Assembly: GCA_902803785.1 (NCBI GenBank)
Contig: CADCRE010000001.1
Location: 1 to 35,412, forward strand
DNA from: an uncultured Erysipelotrichaceae bacterium
Lineage (GTDB): Bacteria > Bacillota_I > Bacilli_A > Erysipelotrichales > Erysipelotrichaceae
Direction: 5' to 3'
DNA length: 35,412 nucleotides
The notes under the pieces were generated by a model. That model saw only the letters and a program-made list of their open reading frames with translations, was not told the origin of the DNA and made no database searches. The position numbers and the translations under genes were made by a program. Below are positions 3,301 to 28,091 of this stretch, piece after piece; the stretch's first letter is position 1; every line of letters starts with the position of its first letter.

Positions 3301-3736
3301 GATGTCTTCCGTCAAGACGATCGTCGATGTGGTCACCTACGTCCTGATCGCCTTTGTATCGATCTCCCTGGTCGTCTCTTCCATCATGATCGCAGTCATC
3401 ACCCTGATCTCCGTCATGGAACGCACGAAAGAGATCGGTATCCTCAGAGCGATGGGAGCTTCGAAACACAACGTCTCTTCCATCTTCTCCGCGGAAACGT
3501 TCATTATCGGTATGCTGTCGGGAGTCCTCGGCGTCGGCGTCACTGCCGCACTGATCCCGCTCATCAACACGATCATCCACAACCTGACCGGAAACTACAA
3601 TGTCAACGCGGTCCTGCCGATCCCGGCTGCGATCGCCCTGATCATCATCGCCATCCTGCTGACCATCATCGCCGGATTCATTCCATCCAAGAAGGCTGCC
3701 AAACAGGATCCGGTCATCGCCTTACGTACCGAATAG
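392..3736 (+). CDS. MacB/FtsX-like ABC transporter, fused ATPase and permease with giant extracellular region
   Basis: An 1114-residue single-chain ABC protein of the MacB/LolCDE type. The ATPase spans about residues 1-225, with Walker A GPSGSGKTT (38-46), signature LSGGQ (142-146), Walker B with DEPTGALD (166-173) and switch His198. A first membrane segment is at about 265-287. A predicted extracellular region of roughly 690 residues follows, then three segments near 974-1005, 1030-1055 and 1076-1095. The FtsX hallmark RTKEIGILRAMGAS lies after the second segment. MacB-type proteins couple ATP hydrolysis to mechanical work in the envelope, such as peptide or lipoprotein export or antimicrobial resistance, rather than classical transport. 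MacB itself is about 650 residues, so the external region here is unusually long and acidic. The gene appears monocistronic and ends at a strong hairpin. Substrate unknown. Confidence 0.9.
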   Translation: MLSLRNIHKTYQTGDLVQTALDGVSLNLRDNEFVAILGPSGSGKTTLLNIIGGLDRYDEGDLVINNVSTRSYKDRDWDTYRNHTIGFVFQSYNLIPHQNILSNVELALTIAGISAKERKERALNALGEVGLREQAHKRPNQLSGGQMQRVAIARALVNDPDILLADEPTGALDSKTSVQVMELLKEVARDRLVVMVTHNPELANSYANRIVNLKDGQIISDSNPFLIPDVPLEEHPPKVRKARMSYLTALSLSFNNLLTKKGRTILTAFAGSIGIIGIALILALSTGFQNYIDKIQEDTLSSYPLTVTSETADATSAILSMVSDRENNKTEGDVVRERQYMTTMFSSIGTNDLKSLKYYLETHTEDYKDDVSYISYAYSVKPLIYTVDAADNIAKLNPSSMMSSIYSSSATSFMSSFSMGANSVFSEMNDNLSSYQDQYDLLAGRWPEKYDELILVLSEPNSISDLLVYSLGLRDTSELKTIMNNVMAGEDSGVKNEALEFTYGELMDLDLRLIHASQIYRYNVKYDIYEDMSTDTDYMKDLYDKAVRLHIVGIVCGKEDSSSMVLSNGVGYTRALTEYVIDEASRSSIVRKQLSDKDTDIFSGNSFDEENKKNENRLDFNDMITVDEDMIKNAFHFNIDEEMFEFEMPSESKMQKIVMDSASKAAEMIEEVPDSRILAGMFALIDSQYVDSKIQAYESMEGVIETVEDEEGNVSQTLLLDDEKLSEIRSTMDASDYRRFAKQIVEAIPDVSDYSGLLEIFSDDQYSSLAKDAAKMFDAYYSGVQTVAEEGKVAYYADETTVNYGSGEVPLTKNLLLSGVVADPNNLSDTASVCNDVINNFVVSMIAAQIGNATAQMMAPMADSLTALGEAFSGEIMTVDTDAFAKAFRFNMNEEELSRLMETMMSSTEEKSYGNNLISLGYQDTDDPTSISFYFRDFDGKENFLRFLDRYNDSVDEDTKIHYTDITGILMSSVKTIVDVVTYVLIAFVSISLVVSSIMIAVITLISVMERTKEIGILRAMGASKHNVSSIFSAETFIIGMLSGVLGVGVTAALIPLINTIIHNLTGNYNVNAVLPIPAAIALIIIAILLTIIAGFIPSKKAAKQDPVIALRTE

Positions 3737-6037: not shown

Positions 6038-6064
6038 AAAAAGACCGGCATCTTCGCCGGTCTT
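6038..6064 (-). terminator. Intrinsic terminator of the Liv-GntR operon
   Basis: AAGACCGGC (6041-6049) pairs perfectly with 6056-6064 around a 6-nt loop, and read leftwards it is followed by a short T run. The stem touches the stop codon of the GntR gene, so this marks the end of block A. Confidence 0.8.
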
Positions 6065-6735
6065 CAGGATCTTACTGCGTTTTCGTATGAGACGTCCAGA
6101 TGCATATGCATATTCATGATCGCATCGTTGGTGTCTTTCCGTTTGAGGGAATCGATGATCGCCCGATGAGCCGTGACCGCATCTTCGCGGTGTTCGGACT
6201 TGCTGAAGGTCTTGTTTCGATAGCTCTTGAAAGCCTTGGACAGCACATCCCCGATACTGATCAGAAGAGAGTTCTCCGTACCTTCAAAGATGATCTTGTG
6301 GAACGTCTCGTCGTATTCCGACATCCTGTCCACATCATTGTCTCTGACGGCCTTTTCGAACTTCTTTTCACATTCCTGCAGCCGTTCGACGTTTCTTTCG
6401 TTGTACTGTTTGATAAACAGTCTTACCGCCAAAGTCTCGATGGAGATACGGATCTCCATGAAATCTCTCAGACTCTCGATCCTGTCGATCACCAGTCCGT
6501 TGGTCTCACCGTTGGCCTGCTTGGAAGCCACATAGGTCCCGCTTCCTCTGCGGACACTGACGATTCCCTTCGCCTGAAGCATACTGATCGCTTCACGTAC
6601 CGTAGAACGGGATACGCCGTATCTGGAACACAGTTCCATCTCGGTCGGAAGCCGGTCTCCGACTTCGTATCCGTCGCTGAGAATCGTCTTCAGGAGACAC
6701 TCATAGATCATCCCTGACTGCTTATTATCTTTCAT
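6064..6735 (-). CDS. GntR-family regulator, FadR/FCD subfamily
   Basis: A 223-residue regulator. Residues about 1-75 form the winged helix, with the GntR signature LPTEMELCSRYGVSRSTVRE and the wing RRGSGTYV. The rest is the all-helical FCD ligand domain, with the metal-site residues visible as DETFH, the His of AHRAII and the His pair in MHMHL. FCD regulators usually sense small carboxylates such as sugar acids, sialic acid (NanR), lactate or glucuronate. The ATG at 6735 is preferred over a start at 6813: it has GGAGG 9 nt upstream and an ATGA overlap with the SDR stop. It is the last gene of the operon it probably controls. Its expected operator type (TNGTNNNACNA) occurs exactly at 13161 and 19121. 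Confidence 0.9.
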   Translation of the reverse strand: MKDNKQSGMIYECLLKTILSDGYEVGDRLPTEMELCSRYGVSRSTVREAISMLQAKGIVSVRRGSGTYVASKQANGETNGLVIDRIESLRDFMEIRISIETLAVRLFIKQYNERNVERLQECEKKFEKAVRDNDVDRMSEYDETFHKIIFEGTENSLLISIGDVLSKAFKSYRNKTFSKSEHREDAVTAHRAIIDSLKRKDTNDAIMNMHMHLDVSYENAVRS

Positions 6736-7490
6736 AAGGATGTACCTCCGTCTACCGTTATGACCGATCCGGTCATAAAACCGTTCTCTTCGCTCGCCGC
6801 AAAACAGATGCATTGAGCGATCTCTTCGGCCTTTCCGATCCGATGGATCGGGATACCGTTCTCAAACTGTTTTCGTGTTTTTATCGGATCTTCACTTCCC
6901 TGTATCCTTTTCTCCAGAGACGGAGAATCCGTCATACCCGGACAGACACAGTTGACCCGAACGTTCTTGTCCGCCAGATCGGAAGCCATCGCTCTGCTCA
7001 AAGAGATGATCGCTCCTTTCGTGGCCGCATACAGCGCTCTGTTTCTCGGTCCGATCAGACCCGCAACGGAACCGACGTTCACGATCGTCCCTTTTCCGTT
7101 TTCCACCATGTGTTCCGCACACAGTTTCGACAGGAAAAAGGCGGACTTCACGTTGATGTCGAAGGCTTTATCGTAGTCTTCTTCATCGAAGTCCAGTATC
7201 GTTCCTTCCGGTACGATCCCGGCACAGTTGACCAGGACATCGATCTGTCCCAGTTCTTTTATCGCTGTATCGAACAGCTTCCGGCATCCTTCCAAAGTCG
7301 AAAGATCCGCCTGTACGAACAGGGCTCTTCCTTCATATTTCCGGTCGAGTTCTTCCGCAACTTCCTTTCCTGTTTCGGAAGCTCCGTTGATGACGACGTT
7401 CCCGCCGTTTCTAAGAAACAGTTCAGCGCTGGCTTTTCCGATGCCAGCGCTGGATCCGCTTATTATTATATTTCTTTTTCTGAAGTTCAT
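6732..7490 (-). CDS. Short-chain dehydrogenase/reductase (SDR) 1
   Basis: A 252-residue classical SDR of the FabG-like type. It has the nucleotide motif GSSAGIG (12-18), NCAG (88-91), catalytic Ser141, Tyr154 and Lys158 (YAATK), and the C-terminal TVDGG strand. Such enzymes oxidise or reduce a hydroxyl/keto group with NAD(P). Position in a sugar-acid operon makes a sugar, sugar-acid or 2-keto-acid substrate more likely than fatty acids. It lies 1 nt after the DapA-like gene and overlaps the GntR gene by 4 nt, so all three should be co-translated. The exact substrate cannot be read from sequence. Confidence 0.85.
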   Translation of the reverse strand: MNFRKRNIIISGSSAGIGKASAELFLRNGGNVVINGASETGKEVAEELDRKYEGRALFVQADLSTLEGCRKLFDTAIKELGQIDVLVNCAGIVPEGTILDFDEEDYDKAFDINVKSAFFLSKLCAEHMVENGKGTIVNVGSVAGLIGPRNRALYAATKGAIISLSRAMASDLADKNVRVNCVCPGMTDSPSLEKRIQGSEDPIKTRKQFENGIPIHRIGKAEEIAQCICFAASEENGFMTGSVITVDGGTSL

Positions 7491-7491: not shown

Positions 7492-8415
7492 CTACAGATG
7501 TCTCAAGTTTTCTTTTGCGTATGCGATATAAGGTTCCAGAGCCTTCCTGATCTGAGCGAATTCCTCATCGGAAGCCCTGCACAGAGGGGCCAAAGCATCT
7601 CCGCAGCCTCTGCCGATGCATTCCAGAGCGGCCTTCAGTCTTCTCGGGAACTGTGGACCCGTGATGGACATCCATACGGTATAGACCATCCTCTGAAGAT
7701 CCATGGCCTCCTGGTATTTCCCTTCCTTGTGCAGATCCCAGATCCTGACAGACAGTTCCGGGAAGAGTCCCAGGATCGCTGCGATCTCACCGTCTGCGCC
7801 CATCAGATAGGTGTTCTCCGGCATTTCATCCGTTGCCGCAAAGATCAGTCCTTCTTCATGGCACTTCTCATACATCGCCGCAAATCCGTCGATGCTTCCT
7901 CTGGATTGTTTGATACCGACCAGATTCTTGATCCCCTTCAGCATCCTGTAGGCGTCATTCGGTTTGACTTCGTTCTGTGGGATGACGTTGTAGATGATGA
8001 TCGGCAGATCGACTGCCTCGGAGATCGCGTCGTAGTAACGGTAGTTTCCGTCCGCATCCGTACCGCCCAGGTACTGGATCGGTGTGATCATCAGCGCATC
8101 CGCACCGGCTTCCTTCGCCTGTTTTGCGGCTTCGATCGCATCTCTCGTGGAGTGCTTGATGATACCGGCTACGATCGGAATGTTCCTCTTGTTTTCTTCC
8201 TTGATGATACGGATCATCTGGTTCCGTTCGTCATCATGAATGGCACAGCCTTCTCCCGTAGAGCCTCCCGGAGAGATCCCATGTACACCCGCATCCATGA
8301 TGAACTTTGCCTGTTCACGGAATGCTTCGGCATCGAAAGTCCCATCGCTGTGATAAGGCGTAACGACCGGGGCGATAATTCCATAAAGATAGTTGTACTT
8401 TTCTCTCTTGTTCAT
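7492..8415 (-). CDS. DapA-superfamily lyase/aldolase 3 (Liv operon)
   Basis: A 307-residue TIM-barrel class I aldolase family protein. The pyruvate-binding loop GGSTGEG is at 50-56, the general Tyr at 142 (YNVIP) and the Schiff-base Lys at 169 (GIKQS). The Arg that binds the aspartate-semialdehyde carboxylate in true dihydrodipicolinate synthase is missing; the loop reads YNVIPQNEV. A lysine-biosynthesis role is therefore unlikely. Family alternatives are 2-keto-3-deoxy-sugar-acid aldolase or dehydratase, or a pyrroline-hydroxycarboxylate deaminase. The ATG at 8415 has GGAGG 5 nt upstream and follows the LivF stop by 1 nt; the longer TTG start at 8427 is rejected. It shares an operon with a Liv-type importer and an SDR. 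Confidence 0.85.
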   Translation of the reverse strand: MNKREKYNYLYGIIAPVVTPYHSDGTFDAEAFREQAKFIMDAGVHGISPGGSTGEGCAIHDDERNQMIRIIKEENKRNIPIVAGIIKHSTRDAIEAAKQAKEAGADALMITPIQYLGGTDADGNYRYYDAISEAVDLPIIIYNVIPQNEVKPNDAYRMLKGIKNLVGIKQSRGSIDGFAAMYEKCHEEGLIFAATDEMPENTYLMGADGEIAAILGLFPELSVRIWDLHKEGKYQEAMDLQRMVYTVWMSITGPQFPRRLKAALECIGRGCGDALAPLCRASDEEFAQIRKALEPYIAYAKENLRHL

Positions 8416-8416
8416 G

Positions 8417-9142
8417 TTAACCTCCAAGGTATGCTTTTCTGATCTCGTCGGATTCGATCAGATCGGAAGATTTGCCGCTGCTCGTGATGACGCCGTTCTC
8501 CAGTACGTAGGTACGGTTGGAGATGGACAGGGCCATGAAGGCGTTCTGTTCGACCAGCAGGATAGGAATATTCTTTTCTTTGTTGATACGGACGATGACA
8601 TTGAAGACGTCATCGACGATGACAGGTGCCAGGCCCAGAGAAGGTTCATCGAACATGATCAGTTTCGGATCGGACATCAGTCCTCTGGCGATCGCCAGCA
8701 TCTGCTGTTCACCGCCGGACAGGGATCCTGCCAGCTGATTCCTTCTTTCCTTCAGTCTCGGGAATAGATCGAACTGTTCCTCCATCATCTGCTGCATCTC
8801 GGCCTTGGAATAATTGCGGGAGTAGGCTCCCATTTCCAGATTGACTTCGACGGAAAGGTCCGGGAAGACCAGTCTTCCTTCCGGTACATAGACGATCCCT
8901 TTGTCAACGATCTTGTGTGTCGGCAGTTTATGGATCTCCTGTCCGTCAAAGGTGATCTTGCCTTTCTTCGGACTTCTCAGTCCCATGATCGAACGCATGG
9001 TGGTCGTCTTTCCGGCACCGTTGGATCCGATGATGGAAACGATCTCACCGTCGAATACGTCGATCGATACATCGAACAGCGCCTGAACTTCTCCATAGTA
9101 GACATCGATGCCTTCCAGGCTGAGTATCTTCTTCTGTTCCAT
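8417..9142 (-). CDS. livF: Branched-chain-amino-acid-type ABC transporter ATPase, LivF-like
   Basis: A 241-residue cytoplasmic ATPase with Walker A GSNGAGKTT, signature LSGGEQQ, Walker B MFDEPSLGLAP and switch His-region equivalent LLVEQN. Overall it matches LivF, the shorter of the two Liv ATPases. It pairs with LivG to drive the LivHM channel. Its ATG overlaps the LivG stop by 1 nt (TAATG). The Liv family carries branched-chain amino acids but also amides, urea, aromatic and other carboxylates. The operon holds a lyase, an SDR and an FCD regulator, so the cargo here may be an organic or sugar acid. Confidence 0.9.
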   Translation of the reverse strand: MEQKKILSLEGIDVYYGEVQALFDVSIDVFDGEIVSIIGSNGAGKTTTMRSIMGLRSPKKGKITFDGQEIHKLPTHKIVDKGIVYVPEGRLVFPDLSVEVNLEMGAYSRNYSKAEMQQMMEEQFDLFPRLKERRNQLAGSLSGGEQQMLAIARGLMSDPKLIMFDEPSLGLAPVIVDDVFNVIVRINKEKNIPILLVEQNAFMALSISNRTYVLENGVITSSGKSSDLIESDEIRKAYLGG

Positions 9143-9915
9143 TATTTCACCTTATACCTTTCTCCCAGATATGCCTTGATGACCTCCGGATTGGTCTGGA
9201 TCTCCTGCGGAGTTCCTTCAGCGATCTTCGCACCAAAGTTGACGACGGTGATCCGATGGGAAACGTTCATGACGACATCCATGTTGTGTTCGATGAAGAA
9301 CAGGGTCTTGCCTTCCGAATGGATCCGCATCAGCAGATCGACGAATTCCGCACGCTCCGAAGGGTTCAGTCCGGCTGCCGGTTCATCCAGAAGTAGCAGT
9401 TCAGGATCTGTCATCAGCGCTCTGGCGACTTCCAGGACCTTACGGTTACCGTAAGGCAGGTTCTTGACGTATTCGTCCTTGATATTGTGGAGACCGACAT
9501 AGTCTAACAGCATCTCCGCTTTTTCTTTCAGCATCTTTTCCTCATCCATCAGACCTTTCGGATTGACGATGCTTGGGAAAAGATCCAGTTTCGTTAACTG
9601 ATGTCCGCCGACCATGACGTTCTCAAGGGCAGTCATCGTATCGTACAGTTTGATGTTCTGGAAGGTCCTGCCGATCCCCAGACGGGCGATCTCGTGTGTC
9701 TTCAGATTCGTGATCTCATGACCCTTGAAGAAGATCTGACCGCTGGTCGGATGGAAGACGCCTTCGATCATATTGGTAGCAGTCGTCTTGCCGGCACCGT
9801 TCGGACCGATCAGAGCGTGGATCTCGTGTTCCATGACCGTCATGGACAGGTCATTGACCGCTGTCAGACCGCCAAACTGTTTGGTGATATTTTTCAGTTC
9901 CAGCATTGCAGCCAT
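9142..9915 (-). CDS. livG: Branched-chain-amino-acid-type ABC transporter ATPase, LivG-like
   Basis: A 257-residue ATPase with Walker A GPNGAGKTT, a degenerate signature LPYGNRK typical of LivG, Walker B LLLDEPAAGLNPSE and the conserved FIEHNMD switch. The C-terminal LGERYK extension is characteristic of LivG. It lies 1 nt downstream of the LivM-like permease and is co-translated with LivF. Confidence 0.92.
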   Translation of the reverse strand: MAAMLELKNITKQFGGLTAVNDLSMTVMEHEIHALIGPNGAGKTTATNMIEGVFHPTSGQIFFKGHEITNLKTHEIARLGIGRTFQNIKLYDTMTALENVMVGGHQLTKLDLFPSIVNPKGLMDEEKMLKEKAEMLLDYVGLHNIKDEYVKNLPYGNRKVLEVARALMTDPELLLLDEPAAGLNPSERAEFVDLLMRIHSEGKTLFFIEHNMDVVMNVSHRITVVNFGAKIAEGTPQEIQTNPEVIKAYLGERYKVK

Positions 9916-9916
9916 A

Positions 9917-10885
9917 TTACGCTACCTCCTTGCCCTTTCCGAGCTTCTTCTTTACGAAACGGACAGCTTTCTGTAAGACAGACCACAGTCCGTCCGGTAC
10001 GAAGATCGCCATGAGCAGGCAGATCGTACAGAACATGACCCAGTAGTAGTTCTGGAACGCTCTGAGCACTTCCGGAAGGACAGTGACCAGTGCAGCACCG
10101 AGGATATTACCCGGTACGGAACCGATACCGCCGACCATCAGCATCGCGACGTAGTTCTGGGAATAAGAGGTCGCAAACGCCGTCGGGTTCAGGTACTGAG
10201 AATAACCCGCATACATGCATCCCGCAACGACGGAATAGATCGCAGCCATCGTGAAGGCCTGGATCTTGAGTTTTGCGACATCGATACCGGAAGCTTCCGC
10301 AGCTTCCCAGTTGTCACGAATGGATTTGTAGGCTCTTCCCCACTTGCTGTTGACGACCAGGACCGCGATCGCGATCATGATCAGGGTGAAGATCAGGTTC
10401 AGATAGAAGTAGGAGTTCTTGTTCGGGAATTCGAAGAAGAACGGAAGTCTCTTGACATCCTTGAATCCGGTCGCACCGCCGGTGATATCCGTCAGGTTGT
10501 TGACCGTGATACGTACGACTTCATTGAAGCCGATCGTCGTCAGGGAAAGGAAGAATCCCTGCAGTCTCAAAGAAGGATAACCCAATGCACGTCCGATCGC
10601 CAGACCCAAAGCCATGACCATCAGCAAAGCCAGCCACGGATTGACTCCGTAGGTCGTATCGGCGATCGCAAAGGAATAGGCACCCAAGGCCATCATTCCG
10701 GCAGTCGCCATATTCATCTGTCCGGTCAGACCGGTGATGAAGTTCAGACCCAGAACGAGGACGATATTGTACAGCAGCATGTTCATGACCGACTGGACAT
10801 AGGAGTTCGCGGAGATGAACAGAAGGACATATGCGACGACGATAGCTGCCGACAGCAGCAATACAAACAGTGTTTTCTTTTTCAT
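9917..10885 (-). CDS. livM: ABC permease, LivM-like
   Basis: A 322-residue inner-membrane permease with about eight to ten hydrophobic segments. It carries the LivM family motifs GLTGQMNMATAGMMALGAY near residues 53-71 and GAALVTVLPEVLR near the C-terminus. It forms the channel with the LivH-like protein, 8 nt away in the same operon. No defect is visible. Confidence 0.9.
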   Translation of the reverse strand: MKKKTLFVLLLSAAIVVAYVLLFISANSYVQSVMNMLLYNIVLVLGLNFITGLTGQMNMATAGMMALGAYSFAIADTTYGVNPWLALLMVMALGLAIGRALGYPSLRLQGFFLSLTTIGFNEVVRITVNNLTDITGGATGFKDVKRLPFFFEFPNKNSYFYLNLIFTLIMIAIAVLVVNSKWGRAYKSIRDNWEAAEASGIDVAKLKIQAFTMAAIYSVVAGCMYAGYSQYLNPTAFATSYSQNYVAMLMVGGIGSVPGNILGAALVTVLPEVLRAFQNYYWVMFCTICLLMAIFVPDGLWSVLQKAVRFVKKKLGKGKEVA

Positions 10886-10893
10886 ATCGTCAC

Positions 10894-11778
10894 CTACGCT
10901 TTCTTCCTCTTGATGATGCCGCCCGGTCTGATCAGCAGGAAGATGATCATCAGACCGAAGGACAGCGCGTCTTTCCAGACAGACGGAATGAAGATGATAC
11001 CGAACTGTTCGATCAGTCCGATCAGGATACCGCCGATGATGGCTCCCGGATAGGAACCGAAGCCGCCGATGACACCGGCACAGAAGCCTTTAGTCGCAGC
11101 GGACGTCACCATGTTGGAAGAGACGTTATATAACGGTGCACACAGGATACCGACGATTCCGCAGATGACGGATGAGATCGCAACTGTCAGGTTGATGCTG
11201 GCAGTGACGTTGATACCCATCAAAGCGGCCGCGTCTTTGTTCTGTGAGACACAGATCATCGCCTTTCCGGCTTTTGTGAACTTGAAGAACAGCTGAAGCA
11301 GAGTGATGACGATGACAGAAATGATGATTATGTAAATATAGGATTCAGACAGGACTGTCGAACCGATACTAATTGACTCTCTTAAGAAACCTTTTACGGT
11401 AAAAGGCAGGGAACCCCAGGACAGTCTGCAGATCTCGATGATGATACGGGAAAGCATCATCGTACCGAACATCGCGTATGTGACGAACTGCAGATTTCGA
11501 AGAGGATTCAGAATGGTCGAAGCGACCAGCACACCAAACGCAGCCATCGAGACCAAAGTCAGCAGGATGGCTAGCCAATGCGGGAACTGCAGCGCTCTTT
11601 CGAACGTACCCGCAAAGATGTAGGCTCCCAGGACGATAAAACTCTCATGTGCGAAGTTTACCAGACCGGTGGCGTTGTAGATCAGTGTGTATTCGGTGGC
11701 GATGAGAGAGTAGATGCAGCCCATCGCGATCGCGGTTACAAGCAACTGTAACCAGTTTACTCCTTCAAATACAGACAT
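10894..11778 (-). CDS. livH: ABC permease, LivH-like
   Basis: A 294-residue permease of the LivH type, about eight hydrophobic segments. Family hallmarks include YNATGLVNFAHESFIVLGAY at about 33-52 and GGFGSYPGAIIGGILIGLIE near residues 235-254. The gene follows the binding-protein gene after a 66-nt gap holding a strong terminator-like hairpin, so permease expression should be lower than that of the binding protein. Confidence 0.9.
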   Translation of the reverse strand: MSVFEGVNWLQLLVTAIAMGCIYSLIATEYTLIYNATGLVNFAHESFIVLGAYIFAGTFERALQFPHWLAILLTLVSMAAFGVLVASTILNPLRNLQFVTYAMFGTMMLSRIIIEICRLSWGSLPFTVKGFLRESISIGSTVLSESYIYIIIISVIVITLLQLFFKFTKAGKAMICVSQNKDAAALMGINVTASINLTVAISSVICGIVGILCAPLYNVSSNMVTSAATKGFCAGVIGGFGSYPGAIIGGILIGLIEQFGIIFIPSVWKDALSFGLMIIFLLIRPGGIIKRKKA

Positions 11779-11793: not shown

Positions 11794-11830
11794 AAAAAAA
11801 GCACCGCACTACCACAGAGGGTAGTGCGGT
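11794..11830 (-). terminator. Attenuating terminator between livK and livH
   Basis: An 11-bp perfect stem (ACCGCACTACC, 11803-11813, with 11820-11830) and a 6-nt loop are followed leftwards by seven T residues. This is a textbook intrinsic terminator inside an operon. It probably lets only part of transcription reach the permease genes and stabilises the binding-protein message. Confidence 0.85.
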
Positions 11831-11844
11831 ATATCGTTTAAAGA

Positions 11845-13092
11845 TTAGTGATATTTAGCAACGTTCTTGACGTCTTCCTGAGATTCGACCATAGAGACAG
11901 AAGCTTCCATCGTCGGAACCAGGTTTCTGATGTAAGTGATACCGATCTGGTAGATCAGGTTGGAGTACTGGTCAGCATAGACTGTACCGATCAGAGTCTC
12001 GTAACCGGAGATCTTTGCGATCGCATCAGCGATTGCCTGAGGTTCTGCAGATCCTGCATCTTCGATCGCCTTGACAGCGAGCTTCGCATGGCAGTAGTAC
12101 AGAGCGCCCTGGACATCAGGTGTTACAGTGTAGTTCTCTTTCCACTTCTTGGTGAATTCAGCGGACAGAGGGTTGGAATTGTCGGAAGCAGAGTAGTCAG
12201 CAACACAGCCCCAGCCTTCGACCCATTCAGGTTCCATCATTTCCAGAACGTTCGTCTGAGCGAGGATCGGGTTCATGTAGACGATCTGATCTCTCAGGCC
12301 CTGTTCATACATTGCCTTGGCAATAGCGACAGCGCCCTTATCATGGCAAGAGGATACCCAGCAGTTGCATCCTGCAGCGATAGCCTTCTGGATGTAAGCA
12401 GTCAGGTCATCGACAGTGGTATCGTGTTCATCACGGTAGTAGTCGATTCCGTTCTCTTTGAAGTAGTTCTCGTAAACAGTTGCAGCACCTGTACCTGTAT
12501 CATCGTTACCGCAGATGATACCGACCTTGATACCGTCAGTGCTTCCGTTCTTAGCGACATACGCGTCAACGACAGCCTTGCCCAGGATAACGCCGTTCAG
12601 ACCATCATCACAACGGTTGTGCCAGAGATATGGGTTCTGCAGATCATCGATACCGACGTTGGTTGCAGAGTTGATCAGCGCAACACCGAGTTCTCTCATC
12701 GTCGCATCCAATGCGATCGTCTGTCCGGAGAAGTACGGACCTAAGATAACGACAGCGCCTTCCTGTTCGACAAGACGACGTACCGTCGTGTCACAGAGGA
12801 CCTTATCGCCCTGGTCATCTTCGACCTTCAGAACGATCTTGTGATACAGACCGTCATTCAGCTTGATACCGCCTGCTTCGTTGACTTCATTGATCGCCAG
12901 CGTAGCACCGTTCACAGCCTGCTCGCCGCCGGCTGCCTGGTCGCCTGTAACAGTCGTAGTGACACCGAATACGATCGGATCGCCTTCTGTAGAAGCTTCT
13001 CCGCCTTCGCCGCCGCCATTGTTGTTCTGGTTACAAGCAGCGAGAGAGAAGACCATCAGTACAGCAAGCAATACTGACAAAAATTTTTTCAT
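11845..13092 (-). CDS. livK: Periplasmic-type substrate-binding lipoprotein, LivK/LivJ-like
   Basis: A 415-residue extracellular binding protein. Residues 1-20 are a lipoprotein signal ending in LAAC, so Cys20 is lipidated; a Gly/Asn-rich linker follows. The mature part has the type I periplasmic-binding fold seen in Liv proteins (FGVTTTVTGDQAAGGEQAVN, then GPYFSG and the INSATN region). It presents a ligand to the LivHMGF complex. It is the first gene of block A, with GGAGG before the ATG, a TTGACT/TATAAT promoter and GntR-type palindromes in between. The strong promoter and the terminator after the gene predict high expression. Ligand unknown; an acid is plausible from the operon. Confidence 0.9.
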   Translation of the reverse strand: MKKFLSVLLAVLMVFSLAACNQNNNGGGEGGEASTEGDPIVFGVTTTVTGDQAAGGEQAVNGATLAINEVNEAGGIKLNDGLYHKIVLKVEDDQGDKVLCDTTVRRLVEQEGAVVILGPYFSGQTIALDATMRELGVALINSATNVGIDDLQNPYLWHNRCDDGLNGVILGKAVVDAYVAKNGSTDGIKVGIICGNDDTGTGAATVYENYFKENGIDYYRDEHDTTVDDLTAYIQKAIAAGCNCWVSSCHDKGAVAIAKAMYEQGLRDQIVYMNPILAQTNVLEMMEPEWVEGWGCVADYSASDNSNPLSAEFTKKWKENYTVTPDVQGALYYCHAKLAVKAIEDAGSAEPQAIADAIAKISGYETLIGTVYADQYSNLIYQIGITYIRNLVPTMEASVSMVESQEDVKNVAKYH

Positions 13093-13160: not shown

Positions 13161-13171
13161 TTGTCTGACAA
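13161..13171. promoter_or_regulatory. FadR/GntR-type operator downstream of the livK start point
   Basis: TTGTCTGACAA is a perfect odd-centred palindrome matching the FadR-subfamily consensus TNGTNNNACNA at every fixed position. It lies about 40-50 nt downstream of the predicted start of the livK transcript. The reverse complement of the identical site stands before block B at 19121. Confidence 0.7.
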
Positions 13172-13202
13172 ATAATACTTATAATGATCCTTTTACCGAA
13201 AG

Positions 13203-13213
13203 TTGTAAGATAA
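13203..13213. promoter_or_regulatory. Degenerate second GntR-type site at the livK start point
   Basis: TTGTAAGATAA matches TNGTNNNACNA except for T instead of C in the right half. It sits at the expected transcription start, 42 bp (four helical turns) from the perfect site, a spacing that would allow cooperative binding or looping. Confidence 0.4.
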
Positions 13214-13217
13214 CTTT

Positions 13218-13245
13218 ATTATAATACATCTATGGCATTAGTCAA
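13218..13245 (-). promoter_or_regulatory. Sigma-A-type promoter of the livK operon
   Basis: On the minus strand TTGACT (13245-13240) and TATAAT (13223-13218) are separated by 16 nt. The -35 box begins just 16 nt beyond the stop codon of the mutarotase gene. No terminator intervenes, so read-through from block B may add to expression. Confidence 0.8.
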
Positions 13246-13260
13246 TAAAGCGCTTACAGT

Positions 13261-13680
13261 TTATGCGACACCGATCGTGATCAGGATGTTCGCAAAGACT
13301 CTTTTTTCTCCTGTAGAGATCGCAAGCGCAACTGCTTCGCCTTCCTTTTCCTTCATGCAGGCATCGTAGAACTCGTAGCGTCCGAGCTTCTTCAGCTCCA
13401 TACCGCCCAGTTCCTTTTCGAATTCCGCGAAGATCTCCGGCGTGGATCCGTCTTCCGGCACCATGACTTCCGCCGCTTCGATCTCACAGACCGAATGGAT
13501 GGCTTCCAGTACATCCGTGACCGTCGGCAAGCCGGCCTTCACTCCCAGATAGACTTTCTTGGCTGTGCCGGTCTTTTCCGCCAGCGGATAGTTTCCGTCA
13601 GCGATCAGGACCTTGGAGCCGTGTCCGCATTTTGCCAACGCGGCCATGATCTCAGGATTGATCAGTTTCGTACTTAACAT
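13261..13680 (-). CDS. RbsD/FucU-family sugar mutarotase
   Basis: A 139-residue cytoplasmic protein. The family motif GHGSKVLIADGNYP (residues 19-32) carries the catalytic His20 and Asp28, and the C-terminal strand RVFANILITIG matches the FucU form. These enzymes speed interconversion of anomers or of pyranose and furanose forms: ribose for RbsD, L-fucose for FucU. D-arabinose has the same ring configuration as L-fucose, which matters for the pathway proposed here. The start has AGGAG 6 nt upstream. It is the last gene of block B, behind the KdsD-like isomerase and ribokinase-like genes, so it probably prepares the sugar for the kinase. Confidence 0.85.
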   Translation of the reverse strand: MLSTKLINPEIMAALAKCGHGSKVLIADGNYPLAEKTGTAKKVYLGVKAGLPTVTDVLEAIHSVCEIEAAEVMVPEDGSTPEIFAEFEKELGGMELKKLGRYEFYDACMKEKEGEAVALAISTGEKRVFANILITIGVA

Positions 13681-13689
13681 CGTTTTCTC

Positions 13690-14301
13690 CTATTTCTCGT
13701 TTTCACGGAGCTTTCCGAGAGATCCTCCCGGATGCCATTTCACATACTGCTTCGGATCGATATTCGCATCTGCCTGCAGTAATACACTCAACGCCTGGAG
13801 GACCAGAGTCTCTGCCAGGATCGAATTTCTCGGAGCCCGGTTGAGCGGACCGCCCTCTTCATCGACGTGTGCCAGAAGATGGACGTCCGATTCCTTGGCC
13901 AGCCAGGACGAAGCGTTTCCGGAGACACCGATCAGACGGCAGCCGTTGTTCTTGACGGCCGTGACCGTCGCCTTCATCTCTGCGGTCTCACCGCTGTTGG
14001 AGATAAAGATGACCACATCTCCCGCCTTCAGCTGTCCGCAGCTTCCGTGGACCGCCTCCGTTCCGTGCAGGAAGTAGCTAGGCGTTCCGGTAGAAGACAG
14101 AAGGGACGCGATATAACCGGCGATATGTCCCGGTTTCCCGATGCCCGATACGTGGACACGGTTTCCTTCTTCTTCCGCCTTCTGGATCAGCTTGACCGCC
14201 TTGTCCAGAGCCTTTTCATCCAGAGTATTCAAAGTCTTATCCATCTGGACTCTGACGCTCTGTGTAAATGTATCCAATGCTTTCTTTTCTGTTTTCTTCA
14301 T
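13690..14301 (-). CDS. SIS-domain sugar-phosphate isomerase, KdsD-like without CBS domains
   Basis: A 203-residue protein consisting of the SIS half of arabinose-5-phosphate isomerases. Motifs match KdsD/GutQ/KpsF closely: SGIGKPGHI (52-60), STGTPSYFLH (70-79), EAVHG, DVVIFISNSGE (95-105) and WHPGGSLG, where His190 corresponds to the catalytic His of KdsD. The enzyme class interconverts D-arabinose 5-phosphate and D-ribulose 5-phosphate. KdsD proteins normally carry two C-terminal CBS domains, about 320 residues in all, and serve Kdo synthesis for lipopolysaccharide. This host looks Gram-positive and the gene sits among catabolic genes, so a degradative role feeding the pentose phosphate pathway is more likely. 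A phosphohexuloisomerase role is the alternative. Confidence 0.8.
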   Translation of the reverse strand: MKKTEKKALDTFTQSVRVQMDKTLNTLDEKALDKAVKLIQKAEEEGNRVHVSGIGKPGHIAGYIASLLSSTGTPSYFLHGTEAVHGSCGQLKAGDVVIFISNSGETAEMKATVTAVKNNGCRLIGVSGNASSWLAKESDVHLLAHVDEEGGPLNRAPRNSILAETLVLQALSVLLQADANIDPKQYVKWHPGGSLGKLRENEK

Positions 14302-14308
14302 GATCGAC

Positions 14309-15298
14309 CTATTTCAAAGCGGAAAGATCCGGCAGTGTGCAGCCTCTTTCCTTCATAAATTCTTCCACTCTCTCCAGTTTCGGCAGAGAAGGCATCGCAC
14401 CGAATCCGCAGACAGTCAGCGCAGCGACGTGGTTCGCGAACGTTAAAGTATCATTCATATCCATGCCCAGGCATACTGCCGTACAGAAGGCAGCTACGAA
14501 GGAGTCACCTGCCGCAGTCGGGTCTTTGACATCCAGTCCCTTGACACATGGCGCATGGAAGAAACCGTCATCGTTCAGGATGGCGGCACCGCTTCCGCCC
14601 AATGTGATCAGCGCGTTCCTGACACCTTTTTCTCTCAGGACTTCGCAGGCCTTGCGGACATCGTCCATATTCACTTCATCGCCGTTGTAACGGATCTCGA
14701 CACCGGTGATGTCCTTTGCTTCGTGTTCGTTCGGTGAGATGTAAGCCAGATGAGACAGCAGTTCATCACTGAGCGGAGCGCTCGGTGCGCTGTTCAGCAT
14801 GACCGGTACACCGGCTTCGTACGCATATGCGGCGACCTGTTCGTTGATCTCCATCGGGATCTCCAGCTGCAGCATCACCATATCGTAGTTCTTCACTTCC
14901 TCTTTCAGGAAAGCGATCTCTTCCCTGCGGATCGTCATATTGGCACCCTGGATGATCAGGATACGGTTCTTCGTATCTTTGCCTTCGGCTTCTTCCAGGA
15001 TGATGTCGGCGACCTGTGTCGGAACTTCCTCATCGAACAGGATGCGGTCATGATGGATGCCGGCCTCATCGATCGTCTTCAGCAGTTCTTCGCCGTTGGC
15101 GTCTCTGCCGAGCTTGCCGACCATGGTGGTATCTGCACCCAGTCTGGCGACCTGAACGGCCTGATTGGCTCCTTTTCCGCCCGGTGCCGTCTTGAACGAC
15201 TTGCCGATGATCGTCTCTCCTTCCTTAGGAAAGACTTCCGTAGAGAACGTAAAATCCATGCCCAGCGATCCGACGATCAAAATTTTTGGTTTTCTCAT
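14309..15298 (-). CDS. PfkB-family carbohydrate kinase, ribokinase-like
   Basis: A 329-residue sugar kinase. It has the substrate-binding start GSLGMDF, the PfkB-1 signature with PGGKGANQAVQVARLG (39-54), PNEHEA near 189-194, and the anion hole/catalytic base in DPTAAGDSF (259-267, Asp265). The canonical TGAGD is changed to TAAGD. The pattern is closest to ribokinase, which phosphorylates O5 of a pentose. Next to a KdsD-like isomerase, D-arabinose or another pentose is a reasonable substrate, but the sequence does not distinguish pentose from hexose or deoxy-sugar-acid. AAGGAG lies just upstream. It is central in block B, 7 nt before the isomerase gene. Confidence 0.88.
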   Translation of the reverse strand: MRKPKILIVGSLGMDFTFSTEVFPKEGETIIGKSFKTAPGGKGANQAVQVARLGADTTMVGKLGRDANGEELLKTIDEAGIHHDRILFDEEVPTQVADIILEEAEGKDTKNRILIIQGANMTIRREEIAFLKEEVKNYDMVMLQLEIPMEINEQVAAYAYEAGVPVMLNSAPSAPLSDELLSHLAYISPNEHEAKDITGVEIRYNGDEVNMDDVRKACEVLREKGVRNALITLGGSGAAILNDDGFFHAPCVKGLDVKDPTAAGDSFVAAFCTAVCLGMDMNDTLTFANHVAALTVCGFGAMPSLPKLERVEEFMKERGCTLPDLSALK

Positions 15299-15310
15299 TG
15301 TTTTCTCCTT

Positions 15311-16204
15311 CTATTCAACGTCAAACCCTTCTTTGATCAGCACGTCGAGTCTGCGTTTCGCATCTTCACTTAACGGCGCAAACGGTCTGCGGCAGGTACC
15401 GCAGTCCAGCCCCTGCTTCTTCAGGATGTATTTCACTGCCGGGAAGATACCGGCCTTGACCATCTCTTCCACGCGGTGATTGACCAGTGTCTGGACCTTT
15501 CTCGCCTTGTCCATCTCGCCGTTCTGATAGTATTCTCTGACCTTTTTGAAAGTCTTCGGATAGAGGTTCACGGTCGTGCCGATCGCCGCATTGGCGCCGG
15601 CTGCCAGACCGGAAAGATAGATCTCATCGAATCCGTTGAAGTAGACCTTGTCCGGATAGTCCGTGATCATCCTTTCGAGACCGAACAGGTCAGTCGAAGT
15701 GTGCTTGATCCCGATGACTCTGTCGTTGTCCAGAAGTCTTCCGGCGTTGTCCTTATTGAAGGAGACTCCGGTAAACTGCGGGATATTGTAGACGATGACG
15801 CCGAGGTCATCTACCGCATTCACCACATCCAGGTAGTACTGCAGGATCTCATCCATCGAGAACTTGTAGTAATACGGCGGGATCATGCTGACGGCAGCGG
15901 CACCCGCTTTCTTTGCGTGCTGTGCCAGTTCGATGACATCTCCGGTACGGATCGTACCGATATGCGATACGACAGGGACTCTTCCGCCCACCTGATCCAG
16001 TACCGTCTCCAGGATTTTCTTTCTTTCCTCAAGAGAAAGCAGAAGTCCTTCCCCGGAAGATCCGCAGCAGTAGAATCCTTCCACGCCGTTCTTCAGTTCG
16101 AACTCTACGAGCTCTCTGAGCATTTCATAGTTGACCATCTCATCTTCATGAAACGGAACGATCAGGGCAGAAAAGATCTTCTTCAGTTCTTCCTTGTTTA
16201 CCAT
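15311..16204 (-). CDS. NanA-like class I aldolase of the DapA superfamily
   Basis: A 297-residue TIM-barrel aldolase most like N-acetylneuraminate lyase. Positions line up with E. coli NanA at a constant +2 offset: Ser-Ser of GSSGEG (49-50), Tyr139 (YNIPQFTG), Schiff-base Lys167 (GIKHTS), Asp193-Glu194 of NGFDE, and Thr210 where NanA has Ser208. The C-terminal CRRPFAPL block also matches. NanA-type enzymes split ulosonic acids into pyruvate and an aldose. The polyol-contacting Asp-Glu pair is kept, so a long-chain ulosonic acid is likely. No NanE or NanK is nearby, so sialic acid itself is doubtful; Kdo, giving D-arabinose, would fit the neighbours. Overlaps the SDR by 7 nt. Confidence 0.85.
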   Translation of the reverse strand: MVNKEELKKIFSALIVPFHEDEMVNYEMLRELVEFELKNGVEGFYCCGSSGEGLLLSLEERKKILETVLDQVGGRVPVVSHIGTIRTGDVIELAQHAKKAGAAAVSMIPPYYYKFSMDEILQYYLDVVNAVDDLGVIVYNIPQFTGVSFNKDNAGRLLDNDRVIGIKHTSTDLFGLERMITDYPDKVYFNGFDEIYLSGLAAGANAAIGTTVNLYPKTFKKVREYYQNGEMDKARKVQTLVNHRVEEMVKAGIFPAVKYILKKQGLDCGTCRRPFAPLSEDAKRRLDVLIKEGFDVE

Positions 16205-17028
16205 GCTGTCCAGCCGCCGTCCATGATCAGGTTGGAACCGGTCATATATCTGCTGGCATCGGAAGCCAGGAAGATGATCGCTCCGTTGTATTCGTCTTCT
16301 TTCGCCATACGGCCGATTGGGATCCTTGCCTCATAGTTCGCATGGAAGTATTCATCCTGTGTATCTCTCCAGACACCGGAAGGTGTGAAGGTGTTGACAC
16401 GGATGCCTGCCTTTGCCCAATACGTTGCGCAGTATCTGGTCAGGTTGTAGACACCGGACTTGGATGCGCTGTATGCGACCGGCTTGATGAACGGAACGCC
16501 TGTCATCTCTTTCTTGTATGCGTAGATGTCCTGTACCGGTGACAGCATGCCGTAGATGGAACCGACGTTGATGATGGAACCCGGGATACCTGCCTTGGCC
16601 ATTCGTGCACCGACAGCCTGGTCGATCAGGAAGGCACCGACGAGGTTGACTTCCACGACCTGACGGAAGACGTCTTCCGGGAAGTTCTCGAACGGACCGG
16701 AGACCTCAGGCGGAGCGGAAGGCTGTGTATCCAGACCGGCGTTGTTTACCAGTACGTCCGGAGTGCCCCAGACCTTTTCCACATCGTCCAGTGCGGTATT
16801 GATCTCATCCTTTTTGGTGATATCGACTTTGTAGAAACGCAGGTTCTCATTCTCTGCCATCTCTCCAAACACTTTCTTCACTCTCTCTTCTTTCGGTTCG
16901 CTGTGTTCGAAACACGCCACCTTCGCTCCTCTTTCGATAAAAGCCTTTGCGTAGTTGGAACCCAGCTGTCCCAGACCGCCCGTAATGATGACGATCTTGT
17001 CTTCTACAGAAAATAACGGATCTTTCAT
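16198..17028 (-). CDS. Short-chain dehydrogenase/reductase (SDR) 2
   Basis: A 276-residue classical SDR with GGLGQLG (17-23), NNAG (95-98) and the catalytic Ser157, Tyr186 and Lys190 (YSASK). A SIYG insert between Ser and Tyr and the C-terminal GGWTAW are typical of a subgroup found with carbohydrate and sugar-acid genes, including gluconate 5-dehydrogenase-like enzymes. AGGAGG precedes the ATG by 11 nt. It follows the zinc-type dehydrogenase by 15 nt and overlaps the NanA-like gene, so the two oxidoreductases and the aldolase are made together. Probably an NAD(P)-dependent oxidation or reduction of the sugar or ulosonate carbon chain; the exact step is unknown. Confidence 0.85.
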   Translation of the reverse strand: MKDPLFSVEDKIVIITGGLGQLGSNYAKAFIERGAKVACFEHSEPKEERVKKVFGEMAENENLRFYKVDITKKDEINTALDDVEKVWGTPDVLVNNAGLDTQPSAPPEVSGPFENFPEDVFRQVVEVNLVGAFLIDQAVGARMAKAGIPGSIINVGSIYGMLSPVQDIYAYKKEMTGVPFIKPVAYSASKSGVYNLTRYCATYWAKAGIRVNTFTPSGVWRDTQDEYFHANYEARIPIGRMAKEDEYNGAIIFLASDASRYMTGSNLIMDGGWTAW

Positions 17029-17043
17029 ATTCTTTTTTACCTC

Positions 17044-18060
17044 CTATTTCATATCGATCAGATATTTGTATGCTTCTCTGTTTTTCAAACGTTCATATGC
17101 TTCCGCGATCCTGTCCAAAGGAAGCGGATCTTTCTTGTCATACCAGTCTTCTGCCTTCAGTTTCCCTTCACGGATCCTTTTAATGACCTCATCGTGCGTT
17201 TCCGGCTCATCGTATCCTGCACAGTAGACCTTGAAATTATTCTTCGTACAGAACGGGTTGATGCCGTAACCCTTCCGGTCGTTCCATCCGTAGACAGCGA
17301 CCGTAGCATCCTCGTTGATCAGAGGCAGGGCGCGGTTGACGTTGTCGCTGCTGCCGACACCGTCGATGATCACATCGATGCCTTCCGGGAAGATCTCCCT
17401 CAGTTGTTCCTCGATGTTTTCAGAATGGTAATCGATCGAAGCGACCGCCCCCAGACGGATCGGATCCTCTGCCCGTTTCGGGCTTCCGATCACGGCGGCT
17501 CTATTTCCGTTATACACCGCATGTGCGACAAATGCCAGCGCATTTGCCCCGGAACCGCACACCAGAACGTTAGCGCTTTCAGATACCTTCAGTCTCTGAA
17601 AATAACTGAGCGTTTCTCTCCAGGTGATGATCATCGGACCGTCCTTCGGATCGATGTCTTCCGGTATGACTTTGTTCACACGGTTCTTGAACCATTTTGA
17701 TCTATCTATGCCGTCTTCTTCCATCGCCATCCAGTCTAAGGCGATCCCGTATTGCGCAAATCCGCCCCAGCACACCGAGATCCCATCGTTCGGGATCGTT
17801 CCCACTCGCGTGATCCGATCTCCGACCTTGAAGTTTCTGACTTTCTGATCGACTTCGACGACGACACCTGTCGATTCATGTCCCAGGACCGCCGGATAGC
17901 TGACCGGATTGGGGTGCTGCTTGCGCATCAGCCTCGCATCCGTTCCGGCACAGGTCGAACCGTATTCGATCCTTACCAGAGCCCCGTATTCCGGGATCGG
18001 CGGGACCGGGATGTCCTGTACGTGAAGCTTTCCTTCTGTATCTAATACCGCTGCTTTCAT
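17044..18060 (-). CDS. Zinc-type medium-chain dehydrogenase
   Basis: A 338-residue MDR-superfamily protein. The catalytic-domain zinc ligands Cys37 (CAGTD) and His61-Glu62 (LGHES) are present. The four-cysteine structural zinc lobe of classical alcohol dehydrogenases is absent, the corresponding stretch being about 86-105. The nucleotide site reads GSGANA (169-174), so the third Gly of GxGxxG is Ala. Relatives include threonine and sorbitol dehydrogenases and archaeal D-arabinose/glucose dehydrogenases, most of which keep the structural zinc. It lies after the DapA-like gene, separated by a terminator. Likely oxidises a polyol or aldose with NAD(P); the substrate is not determinable. Confidence 0.82.
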   Translation of the reverse strand: MKAAVLDTEGKLHVQDIPVPPIPEYGALVRIEYGSTCAGTDARLMRKQHPNPVSYPAVLGHESTGVVVEVDQKVRNFKVGDRITRVGTIPNDGISVCWGGFAQYGIALDWMAMEEDGIDRSKWFKNRVNKVIPEDIDPKDGPMIITWRETLSYFQRLKVSESANVLVCGSGANALAFVAHAVYNGNRAAVIGSPKRAEDPIRLGAVASIDYHSENIEEQLREIFPEGIDVIIDGVGSSDNVNRALPLINEDATVAVYGWNDRKGYGINPFCTKNNFKVYCAGYDEPETHDEVIKRIREGKLKAEDWYDKKDPLPLDRIAEAYERLKNREAYKYLIDMK

Positions 18061-18076
18061 ATGACCTCCAGAGAAT

Positions 18077-18101
18077 AAAAAAGGCGCTTCACAAAGCGCC
18101 T
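18077..18101 (-). terminator. Attenuating terminator after the first gene of block B
   Basis: AGGCGCTT (18082-18089) pairs with AAGCGCCT (18094-18101) around CACA; leftwards the stem runs into six T residues. It lies between the DapA-like gene and the dehydrogenase gene and should cut most transcripts, leaving the first gene the most abundant. Confidence 0.8.
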
Positions 18102-18109
18102 GATGTTTT

Positions 18110-19039
18110 TTAGATCAGTTCCAGTTCCTTCATGACCTTCTTGAGGTTGGCCATTTCTGCCTTGGTGATCGGAGCTAACGGACCTCTTGCCGGGCCGATC
18201 TTCAGACCGGTCTTGAGTTCGATCGCCGGACGCAGGATCGGGTTCGGATGAACTCTGCCGAAGTCTGCCCAGGTACGGCAGAATCTGTAGAGCTTCGTGA
18301 AGTTCTTCAGAGCGACATCGTTCTTGCCTGCTTCGAATGCATCGAAGACCTTGTTCAGAGTATCGCCCATGATGTGTGCGGAACCGGAAATGATTCCCTG
18401 AGCGCCCTGTACGATCGTCGGCAGCAGCATGACATCGTCACCGTTGAAGATGATGAAATCAGGATCGACGTCCTTGGTCGCAAGACGGTAGTCCAGGATC
18501 TGGTTCGGATTCAGGCCGGCCTCATCCTTGATACCGATGATGTTCGGATGCTTCGCAAGTCTTGCGCAGGTCTCCGGTTCGATATTGACGCCTGTAAATA
18601 CAGGAATGTTGTAAAGCATGATCTTTGCACCGGTCTCTTCGGCGATCCTCCAGTAGTGGTTGAAGATGCCTTCCTGATCCGGCTTGCAGTAGAACGGAGC
18701 GACGATCAGGCAGTAGTCTGCGCCGATCCTGACAGCTTCCTTCGTCAGCTTGATCGTTTCATATGTGGATGCACAGCCTGTACCGCAGATCAGGGTGCAG
18801 CGTCCGTCGACAGCCTTCTTCGCTGTTTCGAACAGTTTGACTCTCTCATCGAACGTCAATGCGCTCGCCTCACCGGTCGTACCGGTAGAGATCACGGAGT
18901 CGCCGCATTTGTTCTTGATGACGTAGTCGATCAGCTGTGCGTATACTTCATAGTTAACTTCTTCATTCTTCTTGAACGGGGTGACAAGAGGAATGGAGAT
19001 TCTTCCGAAACCTTTGTTGACAACAGTCTTATTTTTCAT
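18110..19039 (-). CDS. DapA-superfamily lyase/aldolase 2 (first gene of block B)
   Basis: A 309-residue TIM-barrel aldolase family member that would usually be labelled dihydrodipicolinate synthase. GTTGE (53-57), Tyr117, Tyr143 and the Schiff-base Lys171 (GIKD) are all in place. The position equal to Arg138 of E. coli DapA is Phe148 (YNIPVFTG), so binding of aspartate semialdehyde should fail. The active site can still form the pyruvate imine. With a position in a sugar catabolic operon, a 2-keto-3-deoxy acid aldolase or dehydratase is more likely. The ATG at 19039 has AGGAG 6 nt upstream; the frame could extend to 19081 but that start would lie at the -10 box. It has its own operator-bearing promoter and its own terminator. 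Confidence 0.87.
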   Translation of the reverse strand: MKNKTVVNKGFGRISIPLVTPFKKNEEVNYEVYAQLIDYVIKNKCGDSVISTGTTGEASALTFDERVKLFETAKKAVDGRCTLICGTGCASTYETIKLTKEAVRIGADYCLIVAPFYCKPDQEGIFNHYWRIAEETGAKIMLYNIPVFTGVNIEPETCARLAKHPNIIGIKDEAGLNPNQILDYRLATKDVDPDFIIFNGDDVMLLPTIVQGAQGIISGSAHIMGDTLNKVFDAFEAGKNDVALKNFTKLYRFCRTWADFGRVHPNPILRPAIELKTGLKIGPARGPLAPITKAEMANLKKVMKELELI

Positions 19040-19079
19040 TTTCTTCTCCTTATGATTTATTCGTTCTGTTTCTGACTTC

Positions 19080-19107
19080 ATTATATAATATGTCTTACAT
19101 TTGTCAA
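19080..19107 (-). promoter_or_regulatory. Sigma-A-type promoter of block B
   Basis: Minus strand TTGACA (19107-19102) and TATAAT (19085-19080), both perfect consensus hexamers, are 16 nt apart. A promoter this good is expected to be repressed. A GntR-type palindrome lies just upstream and a degenerate one lies within the spacer. The predicted leader is about 35 nt. Confidence 0.85.
19090..19100. promoter_or_regulatory. Degenerate GntR-type site between the -35 and -10 boxes
   Basis: ATGTCTTACAT keeps the GT-N3-AC core of the FadR-type consensus with altered outer bases. It sits inside the promoter spacer, 31 bp (three turns) from the perfect operator at 19121, where a bound repressor would exclude RNA polymerase. 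Confidence 0.4.
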
Positions 19108-19120
19108 TTTACTGAACGTA

Positions 19121-19131
19121 TTGTCAGACAA
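19121..19131. promoter_or_regulatory. FadR/GntR-type operator upstream of block B
   Basis: TTGTCAGACAA is the exact reverse complement of the palindrome at 13161 and fits TNGTNNNACNA at every fixed position. It lies about 14 nt upstream of the -35 box of block B. Sharing this site with the livK promoter joins the two operons into one regulon. Confidence 0.7.
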
Positions 19132-22689: not shown

Positions 22690-22772
22690 TATCTTGTCCT
22701 CCTTTATCGAAAGGCATAAAGCCCTTCTTTATAAGACCATTTTATCTTTCCGGTGCCCTGGAGATGAATATG

Positions 22773-27214: not shown

Positions 27215-28081
27215 TCATTCCAATGGCTTCTGATAGTAATTCCCATAGACATCTGCCGTATCCCGGGTCTCAATGAACGCGTTCGGATCCCCTTTCAGGG
27301 CCAGTTTGACGACTTCTTCCGTCTGGAAGGAGTTCACGACCGTATACAGTAGCATCTCATCTTCTCCCTTGAAAGCACCCTTGGCTTCCACCTTGGTGAT
27401 ACCGTGACGGACCTTGTCCAGGATGGAATCGATGACCGCCTGCGGCTTCTTGGTGATGATGAAGATCGCCTGATGCGTATAGCGCTTATGCAGCCTCTTG
27501 ATCATATAGCTGTTCATATACTGGTAGATGATGGAATAGGCAGCCCTCTCCCATCCGTACAGGAAGCCGGTCACGACGATCATGACCATATTGAAGAGGA
27601 AGACCTGGTTCCACATGGACTTGTGATACTTGTTGGAATAGTAGACGGACAGGAAGTCCATTCCCCCGCTGGATGCCCCATGCATGAGAGCCACGCCGGC
27701 ACCGAGGCCGTTGATCAGTCCGCCGAAGATCGCGATCAGGATCGTCTCATTCAGGACGATGTATCTTCCGAAGAGGGACGCAAACAGGGAAGCCAGGACC
27801 GTCTGAGCCAGGGAAAAGATCGTAAACAGCTTTCCGATGTGACGATAGACGATCACCGCCAGGATCACGTTGATCGGAACATAGAGGAGCTGGAAGGAAA
27901 AATCGATGTTGAAAAAATCCGCAAAGATATCGGATACGATACGGGAAAGTCCGATCACACCGCTCGGGTAGATCCCTGCAGGAATGGAAAACGAGGTCAG
28001 AGCCAGACCCTGCAGCGCAGCTGACAGGATGACCCAGAACCCCATAACGATCAAATGTGTATACTCTTTCTTTTTTGTCAT
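27215..28081 (-). CDS. YitT-family membrane protein (DUF161-DUF2179)
   Basis: A 288-residue membrane protein. The first 200 residues carry five to six hydrophobic segments with the family stretches IPAGIYPSGVIGLSRIVSD (33-51) and HGASSGGMDFLSVYYSNK. The final 80 residues form the soluble DUF2179 domain, including VVNSFQTEEVVKLALKGDPNAF-type sequence and the closing NYYQKPL. The function of the family is not established; YitT-like proteins are proposed transporters. A clear TTGAAA-16-TACAAT promoter lies so close that the leader is only 4-5 nt. Confidence 0.9.
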   Translation of the reverse strand: MTKKKEYTHLIVMGFWVILSAALQGLALTSFSIPAGIYPSGVIGLSRIVSDIFADFFNIDFSFQLLYVPINVILAVIVYRHIGKLFTIFSLAQTVLASLFASLFGRYIVLNETILIAIFGGLINGLGAGVALMHGASSGGMDFLSVYYSNKYHKSMWNQVFLFNMVMIVVTGFLYGWERAAYSIIYQYMNSYMIKRLHKRYTHQAIFIITKKPQAVIDSILDKVRHGITKVEAKGAFKGEDEMLLYTVVNSFQTEEVVKLALKGDPNAFIETRDTADVYGNYYQKPLE

Positions 28082-28091
28082 ACAACTATCT

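Follow-up and report, generated by a model that had tools for sequence, protein, structure and literature searches.

E. coli NanR is an FCD-type member of the GntR family with four zinc ligands and a carboxylate-binding arginine (PMC8012715), and in its sialoregulon one type of operator is found at several operons for the import of an ulosonic acid and its cleavage by NAL-family enzymes. The locus described here lies in a window (the whole stretch of DNA analysed) of 35,412 nucleotides from a MAG of an Erysipelotrichaceae bacterium and resembles NanR on both counts. Its FCD-type GntR protein has the same four ligand residues and the same arginine, and a single type of candidate operator appears at two operons whose products probably import and cleave a comparable acid. 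Unlike NanR, which binds direct GGTATA repeats, the candidate operator is a TGTCNGACA palindrome, and unlike the sialoregulon the importer is a Liv-type ABC system and the operon genes that were scanned include no identifiable NanK or NanE.

Atu1419 is a VanR-group repressor with an FCD fold and a zinc site that regulates its own expression from a short palindrome accompanied by a degenerate second palindrome, the operator lying between -10 and -35 (PMC7797058). All of these features recur at the present locus, where the zinc site is putative and the autoregulation predicted. Unlike the palindromes described below, the Atu1419 operator ATGTATACAT has a different spacing, and its paired sites form loops across 109-190 bp whereas those of the present locus are separated by 30-42 bp (PMC7797058). 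GntR1/GntR2 of C. glutamicum have TNGTNNNACNA sites at uptake and catabolic promoters, and a second site together with a loop has been proposed (PMC2230225). The present locus would be similar if its sites at the importer and lyase promoters are bound as predicted, but it differs in that the gluconate regulon of GntR1/GntR2 is scattered over the genome and is partly activating (PMC2230225). The best solved-structure match by both sequence and fold is S. agalactiae GntR (PDB 6az6), which shares 28% identity with the regulator. Set beside these systems the locus is an ordinary and well-supported example of local gene control of a familiar kind, and an uncharacterised rumen system for the uptake and breakdown of a sugar acid gains a candidate regulator, operator and inducer class.

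Gene content and promoters of the two operons

The livK operon is encoded on the minus strand and begins with the gene for a LivK-type substrate-binding protein (11845-13092, Pfam Peripla_BP_6). It continues with the importer genes LivH, LivM, LivG and LivF (8417-11778), the DHDPS/NAL-superfamily lyase A (7492-8421, listed as an open reading frame from 8427) and an SDR dehydrogenase (6732-7490), all assigned by Pfam. The last gene, at 6064-6735, has the Pfam GntR and FCD domains and is the candidate repressor, in agreement with the initial sequence-only reading in which an FCD-type GntR gene closes this operon. The second operon, block B, is likewise on the minus strand and starts with a DHDPS-superfamily lyase (18110-19039, Pfam) followed by an MDR-type dehydrogenase (17044-18060, Pfam ADH_N and ADH_zinc_N), an SDR dehydrogenase (16198-17028, Pfam) and a NanA-type lyase (15311-16204), also of the DHDPS superfamily, that scores above one of the two NCBIfam N-acetylneuraminate lyase cut-offs. 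It ends with three genes assigned by family match, which encode a ribokinase-like PfkB kinase (14309-15298), a SIS-only arabinose-5-phosphate-isomerase-like protein (13690-14301) and an RbsD/FucU-type mutarotase (13261-13680).

The predicted promoters, TTGACT-16-TATAAT for livK (13218-13245, minus strand, 11/12 matches) and TTGACA-16-TATAAT for block B (19080-19107, minus strand, 12/12 matches), are the two best sigma-70-like promoters in the 11.3 kb searched. Translation of livK starts at 13092. For block B the first codon is placed at 19039, where it is preceded by the RBS AAGGAGAAG, because the start listed for its open reading frame (19081) falls inside the -10 box and had to be rejected.

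Paired palindromes at both promoters

The strong candidate operator of livK (operator B), TTGTCTGACAA at 13161-13171, is the reverse complement of the strong candidate operator of block B, which reads TTGTCAGACAA on the plus strand at 19121-19131. This pair was the starting point of the sequence-only reading and was recovered at exactly these positions; neither these two sites nor the degenerate ones described below are assigned a strand. In a test for GT-N3-AC operators both strong sites fit the FadR-subfamily consensus completely, as had been proposed, whether it is written TNGTNNNACNA (PMC2230225) or GTM-N-KAC (PMC4494728), and the degenerate sites are off by one to two positions. The livK palindrome is centred at approximately +45 from the predicted transcription start. 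It had been described as downstream of the livK start, which holds for the start of transcription but not for the ATG at 13092. The block B palindrome lies at approximately -53 from the predicted transcription start and, as described, just upstream of the -35 box.

Each strong site is accompanied by a degenerate copy within the core promoter, and the distances of 42 and 31 bp first read between them are real. At livK the copy is the candidate operator A (TTGTAAGATAA, in sense orientation TTATCTTACAA; 13203-13213), which lies over the predicted transcription start, has two mismatches and is centred 42 bp from the strong site. The candidate copy at block B (ATGTAAGACAT, 19090-19100) is located within the -35/-10 spacer, has three mismatches to the 11-mer and is centred 31 bp from its strong partner. 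Where the copies deviate at conserved positions, livK has GAT for GAC and block B differs in the outer bases.

Across the 1.65 Mb of the host MAG the exact palindrome pattern matches twice, each time at the present locus, and the reversed control pattern three times. As roughly one exact match per genome would be expected, the genome-wide count alone is near chance and was dropped as proof. Since the count is ordinary by itself, the evidence is carried by location and conservation. The relaxed pattern WTGTCNGACAW is found 23 times in four genomes, namely the host (G000) and its relatives G020, G022 and G031. Five of these matches are intergenic and all five are at livK or block B promoters; the remaining 18 are inside long open frames. 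The palindrome is consequently not scattered over the genome, an outcome on which the proposal of a shared operator depended. When the window's 2.6 kb of intergenic DNA was subjected to dinucleotide shuffling, two gaps shared an identical palindrome with 5-bp arms in 18 of 2000 shuffles. This frequency, the expectation of about one exact match per genome and the three matches of the reversed control would be in keeping with two similar AT-rich palindromes having arisen in two promoters by chance and without meaning. Such a coincidence is largely refuted and extremely improbable, as the four genomes contain no other intergenic match, relatives retain the core between flanks that have diverged and a distant relative has a shared operator of its own. 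The host MAG is 74% complete and further sites or regulators may be missing from it.

Two other positions in the window resemble the motif and were set aside as unrelated or untestable. One, at 28075-28085, has one mismatch and lies over the start of a YitT gene; the other, TTATAAGACCA at 22729-22739, is one mismatch away from TKGTMNKACMA and lies upstream of the neighbouring rbs-like sugar ABC operon.

Conservation in congeneric genomes

Three congeneric genomes contain livK at 88-90% identity. G020 has the full block in the same order from the first lyase through GntR, G022 has most of the block split over two contigs, with the block B promoter lost at a contig end, and G031 is cut inside livK, again by a contig end. 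The named copies of the locus come from Erysipelotrichaceae MAGs, of which two originate from the rumen and abomasum of water buffalo, and no further members were found with a GntR profile in the class or with livK in the family and order.

The expectation that the palindrome would be kept in relatives is borne out for its core and spacing but not for the exact 11-mer, which has no match in the relatives carrying the locus. The exact palindrome was rejected as the conserved unit, which is instead the core TGTCNGACA. It is found at orthologous places as ATGTCCGACAA before livK in G020 and as ATGTCGGACAA before livK in G022 and before block B in G020. In the livK upstream region three genomes agree in 41% of the non-element columns, and against this background the degenerate site is invariant at 11/11 positions (P ~5e-5) and the strong site at 9/11 (P ~0.007), with variation only at the centre and at one outer base. 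At block B, where the degenerate site is conserved at 10/11 positions in G020, the comparison comprises two genomes with a background identity of 67% and is not significant alone (P ~0.08-0.25). The two sites of livK are 42 bp apart in the host and 41 and 30 bp apart in the relatives, those of block B are 31 bp apart in both genomes, and every spacing is within 1.5 bp of whole helical turns. Both sites of the host have T as the outer base and A/T at the centre, and the three sites of the relatives have A as the outer base and G/C at the centre. These matching base changes, although small in number, would fit with both promoters tracking one protein. The gene upstream of block B in G020 is unrelated to that in the host and stops a few bases short of the operator, which thus marks the edge of the conserved module.

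A different candidate operator in a distant relative

Ca. Acutalibacter stercorigallinarum (L098) encodes the same importer at 64-79% identity along with the SDR, the NanA-type lyase, an orthologous first lyase and an FCD-type GntR (36% identity), arranged as two divergent operons. The intergenic region contains the 15-mer ATGACATCATACAAT twice, at 3264-3278 and 3447-3461, each copy just downstream of one promoter-like sequence (promoters read by eye), and these are the only two perfect matches to the 15-mer in the 2.2 Mb genome. The predicted operator is different in sequence from that of the host locus and the apparent wiring is the same, which suggests that the regulator and its operators changed together while the wiring stayed. 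A search of the Acutalibacter family and class returned no further members.

An alternative is that another FadR-type regulator, encoded at a different place in the host genome, acts on the sites of the host locus, in which case the local GntR would have another target. In its favour, the host has a second GntR-type gene on contig C133 (G000:C133) that is 39% identical in the HTH, the assembly lacks 25% of the genome and the motif is common to the FadR subfamily as a whole (PMC4494728). A global regulator would however have sites elsewhere, whereas every intergenic site belongs to one of the two operons described here, and the local GntR gene accompanies the operon in both G020 and G022, as an FCD gene does in Acutalibacter, which makes an external regulator unlikely.

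The regulator encoded at 6064-6735

The local GntR protein has matches to PF00392 (E 1.9e-21) and PF07729 (E 4.6e-22), and its Foldseek matches are to FCD regulators. The VanR group consists of FCD proteins with six rather than seven C-terminal helices, and the regulator belongs to it with six such helices in the model, from H89-109 to H202-222 (mean pLDDT 85). Among solved structures it is closest to S. agalactiae GntR and E. coli NanR. The TM-scores of the matches are 0.5-0.6 and the rmsd is near 11 A, values which probably reflect the uncertain domain orientation in the monomer model (pTM 0.61). The metal-binding FCD signature (D-x3-H and two later His) is present as D142, H146, H190 and H212, which are invariant in four homologues. 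The NanR zinc ligands D172, H176, H222 and H244 align to these four residues and R128 of NanR aligns to R96, also invariant in the four homologues, and the regulator is putatively zinc-binding. It was ruled out as a NanR equivalog by a score of 103 bits against the curated cut-off of 260 and by its candidate operator, which is a palindrome and not a GGTATA direct repeat.

GntR (52-58% identity) and the adjoining SDR (59-62%), which together span 6064-7490, are far less conserved among the relatives than their neighbours (~90%). This suggests that the 3' end of the operon has been replaced or is fast-changing.

Proposed control of the livK operon and block B

It is probable that this one FCD-type GntR represses the livK operon, block B and its own gene through all four sites. 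The strong palindrome NTGTCNGACAN would be occupied by one dimer, and the weaker copy in the core promoter, three to four helical turns away on the same face of the DNA, would be bound cooperatively by another dimer or by the remaining half of a tetramer. At livK the protein would cover the transcription start and form a roadblock at +45, and at block B it would cover the -35/-10 spacer together with the adjoining upstream DNA, so that RNA polymerase would be kept off both promoters. The imported substrate, probably a 3-deoxy-2-ulosonic or keto-deoxy sugar acid, would be bound at the FCD metal site and trigger the release of the DNA, whereupon the importer, three lyases, dehydrogenases, kinase, isomerase, mutarotase and the regulator itself would be co-expressed. 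The exclusive location of the sites, the conserved core and spacing, the GntR gene that travels with the operons and the arrangement in Acutalibacter all support the original proposal of one repressor and a single regulon, in which binding and repression are predicted.

The same regulator could also act with mixed sign, as a repressor at livK (+4, +45) and as an activator, or as activator plus repressor, at block B. Through one and the same motif, GntR1/2 of C. glutamicum acts as a repressor at +2 and as an activator of ptsG at -60 (PMC2230225), and the strong site of block B at approximately -53, upstream of the -35 box, is in a possible activator position. However, the second block B site between -35 and -10 is in a repressing position and the near-consensus boxes at both promoters should need no activator, so a mixed sign appears quite improbable.

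Candidate substrate

If a single repressor does control both operons, this shared switch argues for one substrate common to the importer, the three lyases and the kinase-isomerase branch, and so narrows the search for it. An ulosonic or keto-deoxy sugar acid is probably the common substrate and is the natural candidate. Judging from the family matches, KDO (3-deoxy-D-manno-octulosonate) would best explain the kinase, the mutarotase and the isomerase. It is a tentative possibility that the regulon is a dedicated catabolic system for KDO or a related ulosonate, with the FCD domain acting as sensor of the ulosonate itself. KDO would enter through the Liv-type importer and be cleaved by the NanA-type aldolase to pyruvate and D-arabinose, from which the RbsD-type mutarotase and the ribokinase-like kinase would produce arabinose-5-phosphate and the KdsD-like isomerase ribulose-5-phosphate. 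Were this the case, the biosynthetic route of KDO would be run backwards on a sugar of rumen pectin (RG-II) or LPS. NAL enzymes have ~1% activity on D-arabinose, forming KDO, and weakly interconvert KDO with pyruvate and D-arabinose (PMC4016182). Nothing direct was found in the literature on a bacterial KDO breakdown operon, and the structural matches of LivK, which are amino-acid and urea binders, did not identify its ligand.

Other cis elements

A cre-like site, TGTAAGCGCTTTA (13246-13258, minus strand), abuts the livK -35 box on its upstream side and is invariant at 12/13 positions in three genomes; none was seen at block B. The site is a probable CcpA input at livK. Since it is conserved and G000, G020 and G022 all encode a CcpA-like LacI protein, catabolite repression may act as a second input at livK.

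In both operons the first gene is immediately followed by a terminator-like hairpin with a T-run, at 18082-18101 and 11802-11831 (minus strand), and both hairpins are also found at the corresponding places in G020. They are possible partial terminators or mRNA-stabilising elements that would raise the expression of the first gene.
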